DNA of 64,000 bases from Lachnospiraceae bacterium AC2028 (GTDB taxonomy: Bacteria > Bacillota > Clostridia > Lachnospirales > Lachnospiraceae). The stretch covers positions 248,001 to 312,000 of the forward strand of contig JNJD01000006.1 of NCBI GenBank assembly GCA_000702685.1. Direction: 5' to 3'. The notes below the pieces were generated by a model that saw only the letters and a list, made by a program, of their open reading frames with translations, was not told the origin of the DNA and ran no database searches. Positions 14,953 through 50,529 of the stretch are shown one piece after another. How positions within the stretch are numbered: the stretch's first letter is position 1; each line of letters starts with the position of its first letter. Made by a program: the position numbers and the translations under genes.

Positions 14953-15726
14953 TCAAGTCTGAGTAAGTATATCCATATACGGACCTAGCTTATCCTTCAT
15001 CTTCTTAAGAGCTCTTGTATGAAGCTGGGATATTCTGGATTCCGAGACCTCAAGTGTCTGCGCTATTTCCTTGAGAGTCATTTCCTCGTAGTAATACAGA
15101 GTGATTATCTGCTGCTCTTTTTCCGACAGATTGCTGAGAGCTTCCGATAACTTCTCGGTAAGTTCCTTCTTGTCGATATTCTCTTCGGGACTAAGGAAAT
15201 GAGCGGTAGTCTGGGATGAAGGAGATGATGCAACGTCCGCACCGGATTCAACAAACTCATCAAGGCTGACAAGTCCGGTTATCTTCATCTGTGACTGCCA
15301 TTCGGAATATTCGTCATCGGTAATGCCGAGGGCCTGCGCAATCTCTTCGTCAGTAGCGACATGTCCCTTGGTGACCTCTATCTCATGCATAACCGCATCT
15401 ATTTTTTTCTGTTTCTGTCTGATCGTTCTGGGAATCCAGTCCATCTTGCGGATCTGGTCCAGTATAGAACCTCTTATACGAAGCGAGGCATATGTTTCGA
15501 ATTTGACGTCTTTGAGATTATCGAATTTATCAATAGCATCTATGAGTCCGAAGATACCGTAACTGCAGAGATCTTCGAATTCAACATTATAACCGAGATA
15601 CATGGAGAGCCTTCCGGCCACGACTTTAACAAGAGGAGCATATTCTATAATAAGCTTCTCTCTTACATCCGCACCCCTGTTTTTGGCGTAGTCGTCAAGT
15701 AATTTTTTTCTTGATGCCTCATCCAT
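14953..15726 (-). CDS. sigD: Flagellar sigma factor of the FliA/SigD/WhiG family
   Basis: A 257-residue sigma-28 type factor that directs RNA polymerase to late flagellar and chemotaxis promoters. Regions 2 (LVKVVAGRLSMYLGYNVEFE, then DLCSYGIFGLIDAIDKFD), 3 and 4 (ITLYYYEEMTLKEIAQTLEV, then SESRISQLHTRALKKMK) are complete. Unlike its neighbours it has no clear ribosome site: an in-frame stop lies two codons before the ATG, and only GATAG is near it. A 7-bp hairpin sits 35 bases upstream. It is near the 3' end of the fla/che cluster, as in B. subtilis. Its anti-sigma factor FlgM is not in this window. Confidence 0.95.
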   Translation of the reverse strand: MDEASRKKLLDDYAKNRGADVREKLIIEYAPLVKVVAGRLSMYLGYNVEFEDLCSYGIFGLIDAIDKFDNLKDVKFETYASLRIRGSILDQIRKMDWIPRTIRQKQKKIDAVMHEIEVTKGHVATDEEIAQALGITDDEYSEWQSQMKITGLVSLDEFVESGADVASSPSSQTTAHFLSPEENIDKKELTEKLSEALSNLSEKEQQIITLYYYEEMTLKEIAQTLEVSESRISQLHTRALKKMKDKLGPYMDILTQT

Positions 15727-33631: not shown

Positions 33632-34426
33632 TTATTCTCCGGCTTCATCTCCGCCGGTTGCCGCACTTTCTCTTTCCTTGGGTGCCAGGAAGGATTTAAG
33701 CTTCTCTTCGATGACTCTGGGGTTCTCACCGGCCTGGATCGAAAGAAGTCCCTCGATCATGACCTGCTTCTGCATCATCTCGACCGCATTGTCAGCCTTA
33801 AGCTTGGCTGCGGTGGGAGTACAGATCCAGTTTGCAAGAAGCGAACCGTACAGCGTGGTAATAAGAGCAACAGCCATGGAAGGACCGATCGATGATGCAT
33901 CGGACATGTTGTTGAGCATGTTAACAAGTCCGACCAGCGTTCCGATCATTCCCCACGCGGGACCCATAGAAGCAAGCGTCTCCCAGAATCCGGCAGTGTT
34001 CTTATGTCTTGAATCTATGCACTCCATCTCGGTCTCGAGAATTCCTCTTACAAGATCGGGATCGGTACCGTCTACAACGAGAAGAACGCCCTTTTTCAAA
34101 AAGGGCTCATCCATATCGGATGCCGACTCTTCCAGCGAAAGCAATCCTTCCTTACGCGCAACGTTGGAAAGATCGATGATCTTCTTGATAAGGTCAGGGG
34201 TATTAACGGACGGAGCCTTGAAAATAAGCTTGATGCTCTTAAGGCCCGCAAGATAGTCGCTCATGCTGTAAGATGTCATGACCGCAGCGAACGCACCGCC
34301 GAAGGTGATGATGGCGGAAGGGACGTCGACATAGTTCATGACACCACCGAGTCCGGCTGCCTGGATGATACCGAACGCAAGCATGCCGAAACACATTAAA
34401 AATCCAATTAGCGAAGCTATATCCAC
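33632..34426 (-). CDS. motA: Flagellar stator protein MotA
   Basis: A 264-residue stator subunit with four membrane helices; the TM3-TM4 block MGPAWGMIGTLVGLVNML and the Pro-containing ALITTLYGSLLANWI are conserved. The cytoplasmic loop contains the charged residues that contact FliG. It starts with GTG. It follows flbD by 33 bases. Confidence 0.96.
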   Translation of the reverse strand: MDIASLIGFLMCFGMLAFGIIQAAGLGGVMNYVDVPSAIITFGGAFAAVMTSYSMSDYLAGLKSIKLIFKAPSVNTPDLIKKIIDLSNVARKEGLLSLEESASDMDEPFLKKGVLLVVDGTDPDLVRGILETEMECIDSRHKNTAGFWETLASMGPAWGMIGTLVGLVNMLNNMSDASSIGPSMAVALITTLYGSLLANWICTPTAAKLKADNAVEMMQKQVMIEGLLSIQAGENPRVIEEKLKSFLAPKERESAATGGDEAGE

Positions 34427-34459: not shown

Positions 34460-34648
34460 TCATTCGTCAGCCATGATACCTTTTCTATACGATTTTACAA
34501 GATTTTTGATATCTTGTCTACTTTCTTTTACTATTATCTTGTGGCCTGTAGTAAGGGTTATAACGGTGTCCGGAGTCTCTTCTACAGTCTCGAGTAAATG
34601 GGGATTTATGAGCAGTTTTGTACCATTCAATCTGGTCACTTCGATCAT
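34460..34648 (-). CDS. flbD: Flagellar protein FlbD
   Basis: A 62-residue protein with the FlbD core (MIEVTRLNGTKLLINPHLLE, then TVEETPDTVITLTTGHKIIV). It is the first gene of the second half of the cluster, with a strong GAGGAGGGG ribosome site and its own promoter at 34691. Its molecular role is not established in the family. Confidence 0.93.
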   Translation of the reverse strand: MIEVTRLNGTKLLINPHLLETVEETPDTVITLTTGHKIIVKESRQDIKNLVKSYRKGIMADE

Positions 34649-34690
34649 GAGATTTTCCCCTCCTCACACGGTCTGAATATAGTCAAAAAA

Positions 34691-34719
34691 ATTATAACAT
34701 AAACACTATATATTGTGGC
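34691..34719 (-). promoter_or_regulatory. flbD operon promoter (extended -10)
   Basis: On the minus strand TGT-TATAAT (34691-34699) is a consensus extended -10, 42 bases before the flbD ATG. The -35 at 17-base spacing is GCCACA, so activity should depend on the extended -10. The -35 ends 3 bases from a perfect CodY box. Confidence 0.8.
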
Positions 34720-34722
34720 ATA

Positions 34723-34737
34723 AATTTTCTGAAAATT
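34723..34737. promoter_or_regulatory. Perfect CodY box upstream of flbD
   Basis: AATTTTCTGAAAATT matches the CodY consensus AATTTTCWGAAAATT at all 15 positions. It lies between the flgE terminator and the -35 of the flbD promoter. CodY itself is encoded at 47250 in this window. Confidence 0.85.
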
Positions 34738-34770
34738 TGAAAAAAACCGGGCAGGTGATCCTGCCCGGTT
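34738..34770 (-). terminator. Strong terminator after flgE
   Basis: A perfect 11-bp stem (AACCGGGCAGG / CCTGCCCGGTT) with a 4-base loop, followed on the minus strand by seven or more T, begins 16 bases after the flgE stop. It ends the flgB-flgE transcript unless read through. Confidence 0.93.
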
Positions 34771-34785
34771 AATCATTTCAGATCA

Positions 34786-36495
34786 TTATCTCTTGAGGTT
34801 GGTGAGCTCTTCGAGAAGCGTATCGGAAACGGTGATTATACGTGAGTTAGCCTGGAATCCACGCTGGGTGGTGATCATCTCGGTAAATTCTGCTGAGAGG
34901 TCTACATTGGACATCTCGAGAACGCCGGTGCTCATGTATCCGCCGGATGCGGTAACGTCTACGCCGATGCCGTCGAATGAACCGGAGTTCATGGTAGCCT
35001 GGTAGAGGTTATCTCCGTGCTTCTCAAGACCCGAGGAGTTGGGGAAGCTTGCGGTAGCGATCTGGCCGAGGAGCTTGGTCATGCCGTTGTCGTAGCTGGA
35101 GTAGATCATTCCGTCTCTCTGGATGGAAACGCCGATCATATCACCGAGCTTACGTCCGGTTCCGATTCCGTTCTTGTCTCCGTAGGTAGCGGTAACGGTT
35201 GAGGTTCCGTTGTTGTTGAACATCGAGATACCGGACCAGTTAAGAGCGATATCGGAGAAGTTCGAAGTATTGTCCGCGGTGTTGGCGATGATCTTGGAAA
35301 GCTGGATCGTGGTATCACCGAGAATATTGCCGCCGATGGAATCGAAAAGACCGGTGTCGGTATCGAACTTAAGAACCTGTCCCACGAAATTTCTTCCTGC
35401 GGTTTCGAAATCAAAAGTGGTGGTCGAAGTGTCGGCATCGGGATCGAAAATGCTGGGAGTGGTCGATCCTGAGGATGCGTTATCGATCAGCTGCTTAACG
35501 GTGTAGTCGGTGGATCCGACGGTAACATAGAGATTCAGGAATCCCTGAGTATTGCCTTCGTATCCGTAAGCTGCTGCAACTGCGTCATAAACGGCAGCCT
35601 TCTGCTCGTCGGTACCTGAATTCAAAAGAGAAAGATCGGCGATCGTATTGGTTCCGTTCTTATCCTTGAGGAGCCTGTTCGTGGTATCCCAGGAATAAGA
35701 ATTGGTATTGAATGTAAGAGCATTCTTATCTTCTACGGAAGTGGAGCTTCCGAAAAGCTCTACGGTATCGGGAATCTCGATCTCATTTCCCTTGGCATCG
35801 AGGAGCTTGGTAAGCTCTGCGGAATATTCGCCGTCATTGTCGGTGGACTTGATGATGAATCTTGCGGTGTACTCATATCCGAGTGCATCGTAGAGATTGA
35901 GGTTTACGGTCTTTCCGGCTTCGGAATTGACGTCGGTATCGTTCTTATCGAGAATACCGGTAACGGTTCCCTTGGTTGTTGCCTCGGGGGGATAAGTAAG
36001 ATTGTCGGCGCTCATGATGCGGAGAGCCTGAACGGTATCCTGCTTGATGGAAAGGGTCTCGGGATCCACACCCCAGCCCATAACGTTGTAACCGGTGGAG
36101 GTCATGCAGAGGTTTCCTACACCGTCTACGTAGAATGAACCGTCACGTGTGAAGTAATTTGCAAGACCGTCGGATACTACGAAGAAGTTGCTTCCGGTGA
36201 TCATGATATCGAAAGGATTTCCGGTCGACTGAGCGGAACCCTGTGAAGAAATGTTAACATTGATGGCTCCGGACTTAACACCGAGACCGATCTGACGTGC
36301 ATTGACACCGCCGACACCCGTAGCGGCATTTGCACCCGATGCGGACTGAGTGGTCTGGGACATCAGATCCGCGAAGGTAACTGAACTGGATTTGAACGCG
36401 GTAGTGTTAACGTTAGCGATGTTGTTACCGATAACGTCCATTTTGGTCTGGTGAGTCTTAAGACCAGCAACACCAGAGTAGAGAGATCTCATCAT
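34786..36495 (-). CDS. flgE: Flagellar hook protein FlgE
   Basis: A 569-residue hook subunit. The N-terminal rod-like motif (SLYSGVAGLKTHQTKMDVIG, then NNIANVNTTAFK) and the C-terminal coiled segment (SAEFTEMITTQRGFQANSRI) are the parts that form the D0 core; the central Asp/Thr/Asn-rich region is the exposed and variable domain, which makes it longer than E. coli FlgE (402). The GGAGG site is 9 bases before an ATG-ATG pair. It is the last gene before the strong terminator. Confidence 0.96.
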   Translation of the reverse strand: MMRSLYSGVAGLKTHQTKMDVIGNNIANVNTTAFKSSSVTFADLMSQTTQSASGANAATGVGGVNARQIGLGVKSGAINVNISSQGSAQSTGNPFDIMITGSNFFVVSDGLANYFTRDGSFYVDGVGNLCMTSTGYNVMGWGVDPETLSIKQDTVQALRIMSADNLTYPPEATTKGTVTGILDKNDTDVNSEAGKTVNLNLYDALGYEYTARFIIKSTDNDGEYSAELTKLLDAKGNEIEIPDTVELFGSSTSVEDKNALTFNTNSYSWDTTNRLLKDKNGTNTIADLSLLNSGTDEQKAAVYDAVAAAYGYEGNTQGFLNLYVTVGSTDYTVKQLIDNASSGSTTPSIFDPDADTSTTTFDFETAGRNFVGQVLKFDTDTGLFDSIGGNILGDTTIQLSKIIANTADNTSNFSDIALNWSGISMFNNNGTSTVTATYGDKNGIGTGRKLGDMIGVSIQRDGMIYSSYDNGMTKLLGQIATASFPNSSGLEKHGDNLYQATMNSGSFDGIGVDVTASGGYMSTGVLEMSNVDLSAEFTEMITTQRGFQANSRIITVSDTLLEELTNLKR

Positions 36496-46599: not shown

Positions 46600-46989
46600 C
46601 TACTTCATTACACGCTTGAGATTATCAAACTCCGCACTGATTCCCCTCATCAGACCCTGGTACTGGATCTGGTTTCTGGCAAGCAGTACGTTTTCATTTT
46701 CTATATCGACATTGTTCTTGTCGGTACGGTACGAAAAATTGGCCGCATCGGTATAGGCTCCCACTTTGAGTTTCGAGAGATTGACGTTCGCAACCTTTTC
46801 GTCCATGGACTTATATCTGCGATATCCGAGCTCCTTTTCAAGGACGGATTCAAAATCAACATCCTGTCTCTTGTAGCCCGGAGTATCGACATTGGCTATG
46901 TTGTTGGCAATGCACTGATCCCTGAGCCAGGAAGCATCAGCGGCTTTTTCAAGCACGTTAATATAATCAAATGCACTTGTATTGACCAT
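46600..46989 (-). CDS. flgB: Flagellar proximal rod protein FlgB
   Basis: A 129-residue rod protein and first gene of the fla/che cluster. NNIANVDTPGYKRQDVDFES is the family motif, and GISAEFDNLKRVMK ends it. The ATG at 46989 follows AGGAG by 5 bases; a GTG two codons upstream overlaps that site and is rejected. Confidence 0.96.
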   Translation of the reverse strand: MVNTSAFDYINVLEKAADASWLRDQCIANNIANVDTPGYKRQDVDFESVLEKELGYRRYKSMDEKVANVNLSKLKVGAYTDAANFSYRTDKNNVDIENENVLLARNQIQYQGLMRGISAEFDNLKRVMK

Positions 46990-47042
46990 AAACACTCCTT
47001 TTTGGGCATAAAAGTCCTTCTTTTATACCTTACCAAATATTA

Positions 47043-47070
47043 ATTATACTGAAAATACCAAAAAACACAA
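47043..47070 (-). promoter_or_regulatory. fla/che promoter upstream of flgB
   Basis: On the minus strand TTGTGT (47065-47070), a 16-base spacer and TATAAT (47043-47048), 54 bases before flgB. The 15 bases 47043-47057 match the CodY consensus at 11 of 15 positions and overlap the -10. The whole gap 46990-47249 holds this promoter and the codY terminator; I see no gene in it. Confidence 0.65.
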
Positions 47071-47151
47071 TATCTTTTTAGCTTTAAGCGGCCTTACCAC
47101 AAAATCTTGTATGAGCCGAAACCAAAATTTAAATTCCGGTTTCTTATATAC

Positions 47152-47249: not shown

Positions 47250-48038
47250 CTACTTGATGCCCTGGGAAACCTTCATGGAACCTATCTCGTCAAACACGTA
47301 TTCGTTGAGGATCTTGATATATGTTCCCTTCATTCCCGAAGATCTCGACTCGATTATGCCTGCGCTCTCGAACTTTCTGAGGGCATTGACGATAACACTT
47401 CTCGTTATACCTACTCTATCGGCTATTTTGCTCGCAACCAATATACCCTCATCGCCTTCAAGTTCATCAAATATGTGAACAATTGCTTCCATCTCGGAAA
47501 AAGAAAGAGTACTTATAGCCGATTTAACGACAGCTATCTTCCTGCTCTCCTCAGCACTTTCCTCGCTTACGGAACGAAGCATCTCGAGTCCGACGACGGT
47601 GGTGCCATATTCGAGAAGGATGATATCATCTATGTCATATTCTTTATCGGTACGATACACGAAAAGAGTACCGAGCCTCTCACCCGCGATCTCAATCGGG
47701 GTGATGATGGCCTTGTACATTTTCGTATCGGTCTTTTCAAAACCGAGCGTATCGAGATTTACATTTTCCTTGGTGGAAAGAACGGAAAGAAGTCTTTCAT
47801 TCAGCATCTTGTCGATGAACTCTCCGACATTGCCGCCGATGAGTTCGGCTATGGGCTCTTCTCCGGGAAGAAGTCCCTGACCGAGAAGCTTGCCCTTCCT
47901 GCTGATGACGATGACACTTGAAGACAGGATATCACGCATGACGGAGCAGATATCGTTAAATACAACCTTGCTGGAATTGTTGTTGTGGAGCAGACTTCCT
48001 ATTTTTCTCGTCTTATCAAGAAGCTGTACACTACTCAT
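47250..48038 (-). CDS. codY: GTP- and branched-chain-amino-acid-sensing regulator CodY
   Basis: A 262-residue global regulator. The N-terminal GAF domain (SSVQLLDKTRKIGSLLHNNN) binds isoleucine/valine, and the C-terminal winged helix (VASKIADRVGITRSVIVNAL, then RKFESAGIIESRSSGMKGTY) is the highly conserved CodY DNA-binding segment. GGAGG precedes the ATG. It lies directly before flgB, as in B. subtilis, though the codV-clpQ-clpY genes that separate it from topA there are missing. Its promoter has an adjoining CodY box. Confidence 0.97.
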   Translation of the reverse strand: MSSVQLLDKTRKIGSLLHNNNSSKVVFNDICSVMRDILSSSVIVISRKGKLLGQGLLPGEEPIAELIGGNVGEFIDKMLNERLLSVLSTKENVNLDTLGFEKTDTKMYKAIITPIEIAGERLGTLFVYRTDKEYDIDDIILLEYGTTVVGLEMLRSVSEESAEESRKIAVVKSAISTLSFSEMEAIVHIFDELEGDEGILVASKIADRVGITRSVIVNALRKFESAGIIESRSSGMKGTYIKILNEYVFDEIGSMKVSQGIK

Positions 48039-48148: not shown

Positions 48149-48163
48149 AATTTTCAGAAACTT
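48149..48163. promoter_or_regulatory. CodY box (14/15) upstream of codY
   Basis: AATTTTCAGAAACTT differs from the consensus at one position. It is placed 4 bases upstream of the codY -35, almost the same geometry as the perfect box at flbD (3 bases). Confidence 0.75.
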
Positions 48164-50457: not shown

Positions 50458-50529
50458 CAGCTGGTAGGGGAATCGAACCCCTGTTTCCGCCGTGAGAGGG
50501 CGGCGTCTTAACCGCTTGACCAACCAGCC
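50458..50529 (-). tRNA. tRNA-Glu (anticodon CTC)
   Basis: A 72-base cloverleaf: acceptor GGCTGGT / ACCAGCT, D arm GTC...GAC, anticodon stem CCGCC/GGCGG with loop CTCTCAC (anticodon CUC, reads GAG), and T arm AGGGG-TTCGATT-CCCCT. The 1-72 pair is G.U, the discriminator is G, and CCA is not encoded. It has its own promoter and a REP hairpin as probable terminator. Confidence 0.96.

Follow-up and report, generated by a model that had tools for sequence, protein, structure and literature searches.

Predicted NrdR operators at two flagellar promoters of a Lachnospiraceae bacterium, and CodY as a possible recent input at the second

The flagellar cluster on the minus strand of the window (the whole stretch of 64,000 nucleotides from Lachnospiraceae bacterium AC2028 analysed here) consists of two units, flgB-flgE and flbD-sigD, with a terminator between them, and palindromes resembling those found upstream of nrdD are present at the promoters of both. 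We consider it likely, at a probability of about 0.65 and on the basis of sequence comparison, that both promoters are NrdR operators and that the few closest species have gained CodY as an addition at the second unit. Most likely, NrdR would repress both flagellar promoters, while CodY would be a recent extra input at flbD. The elements are conserved, they match the nrdD operators in sequence and in spacing, and both NrdR and CodY are encoded in the genome.

The genes flgB, flgE, flbD, motA, sigD and codY all lie on the minus strand. The first unit begins with flgB (46600..46986; TIGR01396, 94 bits, over cut-off) and ends with flgE (34786..36495), which matches the FlgEFG subfamily over its cut-off and the FlgE models below theirs. 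The second begins with flbD (34460..34648; Pfam FlbD, 95.5 bits, over cut-off, and no NCBIfam match), followed by motA (33632..34426), with matches to the MotP/PomA/MotA family models below the equivalog cut-offs; near its far end is sigD (14953..15726), encoding a FliA/WhiG sigma factor (TIGR02479, 263 bits, over cut-off). The gene codY (47250..48038; NF003170, 324 bits, over cut-off) adjoins flgB directly upstream. Curated cut-offs are passed by FlbD (in Pfam), FliM, the FliA/WhiG sigma factor, FlgB and CodY, while FlgE and MotA are family matches that stay under the NCBIfam equivalog cut-offs. A similar gene order has been described for the flgB-fliA locus of Roseburia and Eubacterium, where codY lies upstream and flbD follows flgE in most genomes, and where CodY was suggested as a nutritional regulator (PMC3720852); in contrast with the present analysis, the available text of that paper does not mention NrdR and holds no operator analysis of the flgB or flbD promoters. 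At flgB and flbD no Rfam element was found at gathering scores, and a 601-bp region had no match in phage records. The only Rfam match of the window is a tRNA gene at 50458-50529, between topA and a PolC-like gene (neighbours named by eye).

The first-pass annotation had proposed a perfect 11-bp terminator after flgE, and this was borne out: at 34770-34745 (minus strand) we found a G+C-rich hairpin followed by a T run, as expected of an intrinsic terminator, with an 11-bp stem containing 8 G-C pairs and a loop of 4. Its RNA fold has an energy of -23.9 kcal/mol (z = -6.0), equalled by 0 of 200 shuffles. Among the 19 terminator-like sites between 30000 and 46000 it ranks first both in pairs and in G-C pairs, the total of 19 being no higher than expected from shuffles (mean 15.8, sd 4.3). 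Another terminator-like hairpin, with 9 pairs and a weak T run, lies between genes of the first unit at 42182-42160. A hairpin after flgE is present in 22/23 genus loci, the sole exception being L058, a member of the close clade, and in 31/41 other loci of the family. At least 5 T's in the 8 bases past the drawn stem were counted by a simple script in 7/23 genus and 5/41 other family loci, the low count of 7/23 being due in part to T's that the script had counted into the stem.

For the second unit an extended -10 promoter with a -35 element had been described. The extended -10, TGTTATAAT (TG-T-TATAAT), is present at 34691..34699 on the minus strand, with a predicted start near 34684, and each of the 12 close-clade loci, the window's own included, has TATAAT with the extended TG. 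The supposed -35, three bases from the CodY box, is GCCACA, which matches the consensus at 3/6 positions, and a scan for two-hexamer promoters did not list the flbD -10. These two results point to an extended -10 promoter that lacks a genuine -35, so that the first element of the earlier description stands and the second does not. The cluster had also been described as cut in two. The hairpin (22/23 loci) and the close-clade promoter (12/12) agree with this.

Between the CodY box and the -10 at flbD there is a 16-bp near-palindrome, CCACAATATATAGTGT, absent from the earlier annotation, at 34703..34718 (minus strand), with its centre at about -26.5. It scores 19.7 bits with a matrix derived from nrdD only, and in the alignment the block formed by the palindrome and the -10 is common to all 12 close-clade loci, again counting the window's own. 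A weak second box, TGACTATATTCAGACC (34670..34685, minus strand, -0.9 bits), lies 33 bp on, over the predicted start. This second box scores 3.4, 4.3 and 6.8 bits in three relatives (L055, L058 and L059, respectively); it is missing in L061, L062 and L064 (-15.6 to -18.2 bits), and L063 has a different best pair. The occurrence of these boxes was evaluated in flbD loci obtained through a MotA search of 31 genus genomes, which gave 26 loci (L054-L079), the partial loci L080-L083 being left out; upstream regions were taken from 25 of them, L056 being dropped because its contig begins within flbD. In 12/25 loci, which make up the close clade, 0/200 shuffles matched the single-box score; pairs at p<=0.05 were found in 11/25. 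Among the genus loci that do not belong to the close clade the corresponding number is 0/13, and in other genera a pair at p<=0.01 was present in 3/49 flbD upstreams (20 of 69 dropped). These last two counts mark the flbD operator as a peculiarity of the close clade.

The codY-flgB intergenic region holds a pair of boxes which the earlier annotation did not report either. Box 1, ATACAAGATTTTGTGG (47097..47112, minus strand), scores 14.9 bits and is centred at about -68.5; box 2, TAAAAAGATATTGTGT (47065..47080, minus strand), lies 32 bp on and scores 10.9 bits, its right half being the -35 TTGTGT and its left half degenerate. The -10 TATAAT of this promoter is at 47043..47048 on the same strand, with a predicted start near 47036. 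The positions of the box centres relative to the start are therefore -68.5/-36.5 at flgB, an arrangement shared by 13/28 genus loci, and -26.5/+6.5 at flbD, while centres at about -36.5/-5 occur in another part of the genus (L041, L042 and L044). In each pair of the window one box covers the -35 or the -35/-10 spacer. As the boxes overlap promoter elements despite their differing registers, the layout is that of a repressor.

Upstream of nrdD, in this genome and in the genus, similar palindromes are repeated two or three times at intervals of 31-33 bp. A 16-bp matrix was learnt from nrdD boxes alone, using 28 genus upstreams (L189 and L191 being without one), and the training boxes were picked at 31-33 bp with the NrdR consensus; nrdD is therefore no test of the matrix, and its spacing peak is there by construction. 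The two best places for a box pair in the window are the promoters of flgB (25.8 bits, with a start-to-start distance of 32 bp, within the 31-33 bp expected of an nrdD-like pair) and flbD (18.9 bits), the next place reaching 6.6 bits. Across the genus, a pair at 31-33 bp with p<=0.05 was present upstream of flgB in 27/28 genomes, and in 26/28 no more than 1 of 200 shuffles equalled the best single box. In the control region upstream of codY, at p<=0.05, a single box was found in 1/28 genomes and a pair in 5/28.

We also evaluated whether the pair occurs beyond the genus. In named loci, whose species partly overlap the genus set, a flgB pair at p<=0.01 was found in 45/61 (19 of 80 were dropped, being without flgB beside codY), against 7/80 for the codY control; the codY-flgB region of the isolate Lachnospiraceae bacterium P6A3 (L240) is one that has a pair. 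Pairs of at least 15 bits occur in 33/61 of these flgB upstreams and once in the other 611,782 bp, which are mostly coding; the 19 named loci without flgB beside codY contain none. With one genome per genus of the family, a flgB pair at p<=0.01 was present in 18/30 (own genome included) and, in another sample, in 11/33 (7 of 40 dropped). Combining the other genera and excluding our own genome, the fraction is 28/62, and 34/62 have no such pair within 220 bp. At the level of the order, 27 new flgB loci, from 135 genomes with a match, gave pairs in 11; in loci of other families the count is 3/13. Two of these three, L407 and L411 (genomes G314 and G226, from one other family of the order), have scores of 30.9 and 24.8 bits, both at 32 bp, while the third is weaker and AT-rich.

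The spacing gives a further indication. When spacings from 17 to 47 bp were scanned in 113 non-redundant flgB upstreams, a set chosen at a lax gene threshold that may include a stray locus, 22 pairs fell at 31 bp and 33 at 32 bp, all other spacings having at most 12; the same scan of codY upstreams gave 0/72 at every spacing. When one genome per genus was taken from beyond the window's genus (n=61), the number of sequences in which both boxes reached at least 5 bits was 3 for 31 bp and 9 for 32 bp; spacings outside 29-35 bp averaged 0.17, with a maximum of 2. Likewise, 67 named and order-level sequences gave 8 at 31 bp and 19 at 32 bp, against 0.50. Overall, there is a strong case for regarding the pair at flagellar promoters of the genus and of many other Lachnospiraceae as a conserved operator, and a moderate one, built on resemblance to nrdD boxes, for regarding it as a putative NrdR site.

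NrdR itself is encoded in the genome as a protein of 151 aa with Zn_ribbon_NrdR and ATP-cone domains (TIGR00244, 199 bits, over cut-off). The same model is passed in 28/31 genus genomes, the window's included, and in 144/149 genomes of the family, so that co-occurrence of NrdR with the flgB boxes has no power as a test. In the window's genome nrdR is about 65 kb from flgB. In 13 of the 80 genera that gave a FlgB match, counted by eye, the two genes share a contig at a distance of 5.7-10.4 kb, with no visible association between this linkage and the presence of the boxes. In published work, NrdR binds best to boxes separated by 15, 16 or 17 bp, which places their starts 31-33 bp from each other; the purified protein requires two of them, and in that account it seems to act specifically on ribonucleotide reductase (PMC12051234). 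In P. aeruginosa a site at topA with a single box was reported to be functional in vivo (PMC4409342), a non-reductase target comparable in this respect to those proposed here, although PMC12051234 questions it.

The known NrdR regulon (nrdDG, nrdAB, nrdHEF) is similar to the present case in that each promoter has a pair of 16-bp palindromes with the same consensus, set 31-33 bp start to start and overlapping promoter elements, in genomes that encode NrdR; it differs in that the targets here are flagellar operons and not reductase genes, and in that box 2 is degenerate at both promoters of the window. A link between NrdR and motility has been reported in E. coli, where overproduction left hardly any attached flagella, by an "unknown mechanism" (PMC4898720). 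However, the portion of that paper available reports that motility genes are lower, not higher, upon loss of NrdR, and reports no flagellar NrdR box (PMC4898720). A search of titles and abstract beginnings returned no published report of NrdR boxes at flagellar genes.

A model of the complete nrdD pair (48 positions) was run on the whole genome, with 150 of 1021 first-look candidates scored. It placed nrdD first (E 9e-9) and the flbD promoter third (E 6e-4), while flgB was not among its 13 matches; in the window, flgB reaches only 8.8 bits (E 0.18) under this model. The second place is taken by a strong palindrome, ATACAATATATTGTGG (locus L113, G000:C2:19324; model site C2:19300), directly upstream of an ORF resembling a glycosidase by eye. 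Around 2200-2312 of locus L230 (G000:C2:27500-32000) there are two NrdR-type pairs of 23.3 and 19.7 bits, between RsmA-like and TPR-like genes (by eye), which may be a further NrdR target. The palindrome CCACTAAATGTAGTGG (L214/L387, G000:C6:59354), followed at 32 bp by a weak partner (14.5 bits), is upstream of a gene that looks GyrB/ParE-like by eye and recalls topA, the target reported in P. aeruginosa. In the stretch read near a second nrdD-like gene (near C6:132044; L228) there was no strong NrdR pair, the best reaching 0.8 bits.

The published strict two-box pattern, when applied to genus sequences, was found in 19/19 at nrdD and in 1/19 at flgB. At flgB it was also found in 18/111 family and named sequences and in 5/25 sequences at the order level, and at flbD in 3/9 clade sequences, against 1/81 for codY, 2/49 for flbD of other genera and about 1% for shuffles. 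Both flagellar sites of the window lack it because box 2 is degenerate (at flgB, box 2 is without the left C). That most genus flgB sites depart from the strict pattern, and that at flbD strong single palindromes have weak partners, might be explained if the palindromes were sites of another regulator, with an NrdR-like box, acting on flagellar genes. We regard this as rather unlikely, considering that the nrdD-operator sequence and the 31-32-bp repeat are found also in genera outside the training set, and that the 612 kb of named loci outside flgB upstreams contain a single pair of at least 15 bits. It could also be argued that there is no special operator at all, but an ordinary terminator followed by an AT-rich promoter, and that the palindromes are nothing more than promoter-like sequence. 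Since the -35 TTGTGT lies within box 2 of flgB, and the spacer of the flbD promoter is taken up by its box, promoter constraint alone would conserve part of these palindromes. This appears very improbable, given that box 1 of flgB, at about -68, is outside the promoter core, that strict pairs are as rare as reported above in codY and in other-genus flbD upstreams, and that the shuffle and spacing tests go against promoter-like sequence.

The alternative which deserves most attention concerns CodY, since a perfect 15/15 CodY box had been annotated at flbD and read as direct control of the second half of the cluster. The box is indeed there: AATTTTCAGAAAATT, at 34723..34737 on the minus strand, has no mismatch to the 15-bp CodY motif, AATTTTCWGAAAATT, and its centre is about -46 from the predicted start, beside the promoter. 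It is the only exact site in the 2.77-Mb genome, which makes chance an unlikely source; sites with at most 2 mismatches number 21 genome-wide, against 8 with a reversed control pattern. The motif is present also at the codY promoter (48149..48163, minus strand, 1 mismatch), and upstream of codY a box with at most 2 mismatches is found in 23/28 genus genomes, against 1.6% of shuffles, a likely case of autoregulation. As codY adjoins flgB and the motif is in use at codY, direct CodY input at the predicted flbD site is plausible. One can therefore propose that CodY controls an internal checkpoint at flbD, by which the half of the cluster encoding stator, C-ring, export and chemotaxis functions would be repressed in rich medium, and we give this proposal even odds. 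The box is exact in all of the nearest three species with sequence across the site (L054, L055 and L057). However, these exact occurrences are 3/25 among genus flbD loci (the window's species, G018 and G004), which means that it is not conserved genus-wide; four further loci (L061-L064) have 2-3 mismatches at the same position. What is conserved in this promoter is the NrdR-type box, and 0/28 flgB upstreams of the genus contain a CodY box with at most 2 mismatches, which rules out CodY as a conserved regulator of both promoters. The CodY reading of the flbD promoter is thus plausible but narrow; direct control of the second half may exist, but is not supported as the main wiring. It should be noted that the CodY checkpoint and control by NrdR are compatible, and both can hold.

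CodY control of flagellar genes has a precedent in B. subtilis, where it acts mainly at the single fla/che promoter. A CodY box at a flagellar promoter is common to both cases, as is codY beside flgB; in our case, however, the box is at the internal flbD promoter and not at flgB, and is exact in three of the species examined.

Under control by NrdR, the cluster of this rumen species would work as follows, where we infer binding, repression and the physiological direction at the flagellar promoters from the arrangement of the sites. The units flgB-flgE and flbD-motAB-fli-flh-che-sigD, parted by the terminator, would both be shut by NrdR together with nrdD when it carries dATP and ATP; when dATP falls, both would be released, and nrdD with them. 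CodY, through its box at -46, just upstream of the -35 region of flbD, may be an additional repressor in the few closest species, one that senses nutrients and acts on the second unit alone. The NrdR-type palindrome conserved at flbD and the like operator at flgB make the two halves look jointly controlled, and also separable by CodY.

This arrangement suggests a direct link from the supply of DNA precursors to swimming. More broadly, we consider it reasonably probable that the flagellar regulon belongs directly to that of NrdR throughout much of the Lachnospiraceae, and also in one or more further families of the order, so that the balance of dATP and ATP would decide on flagella in register with ribonucleotide reductase, with single lineages adding inputs (a second NrdR-type promoter at flbD, and then CodY). 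The distribution of the sites suggests a stepwise wiring, in which the widespread flgB operator came first, one clade then acquired another at flbD, and the CodY box was gained last. If true, the presence of an NrdR-type pair at a flagellar promoter in many genera of a family common in gut and rumen would make the NrdR regulon wider than thought and would offer a direct, testable route from nucleotide pools to motility; it would also bear on the timing of flagellin, an immune signal, in the gut.
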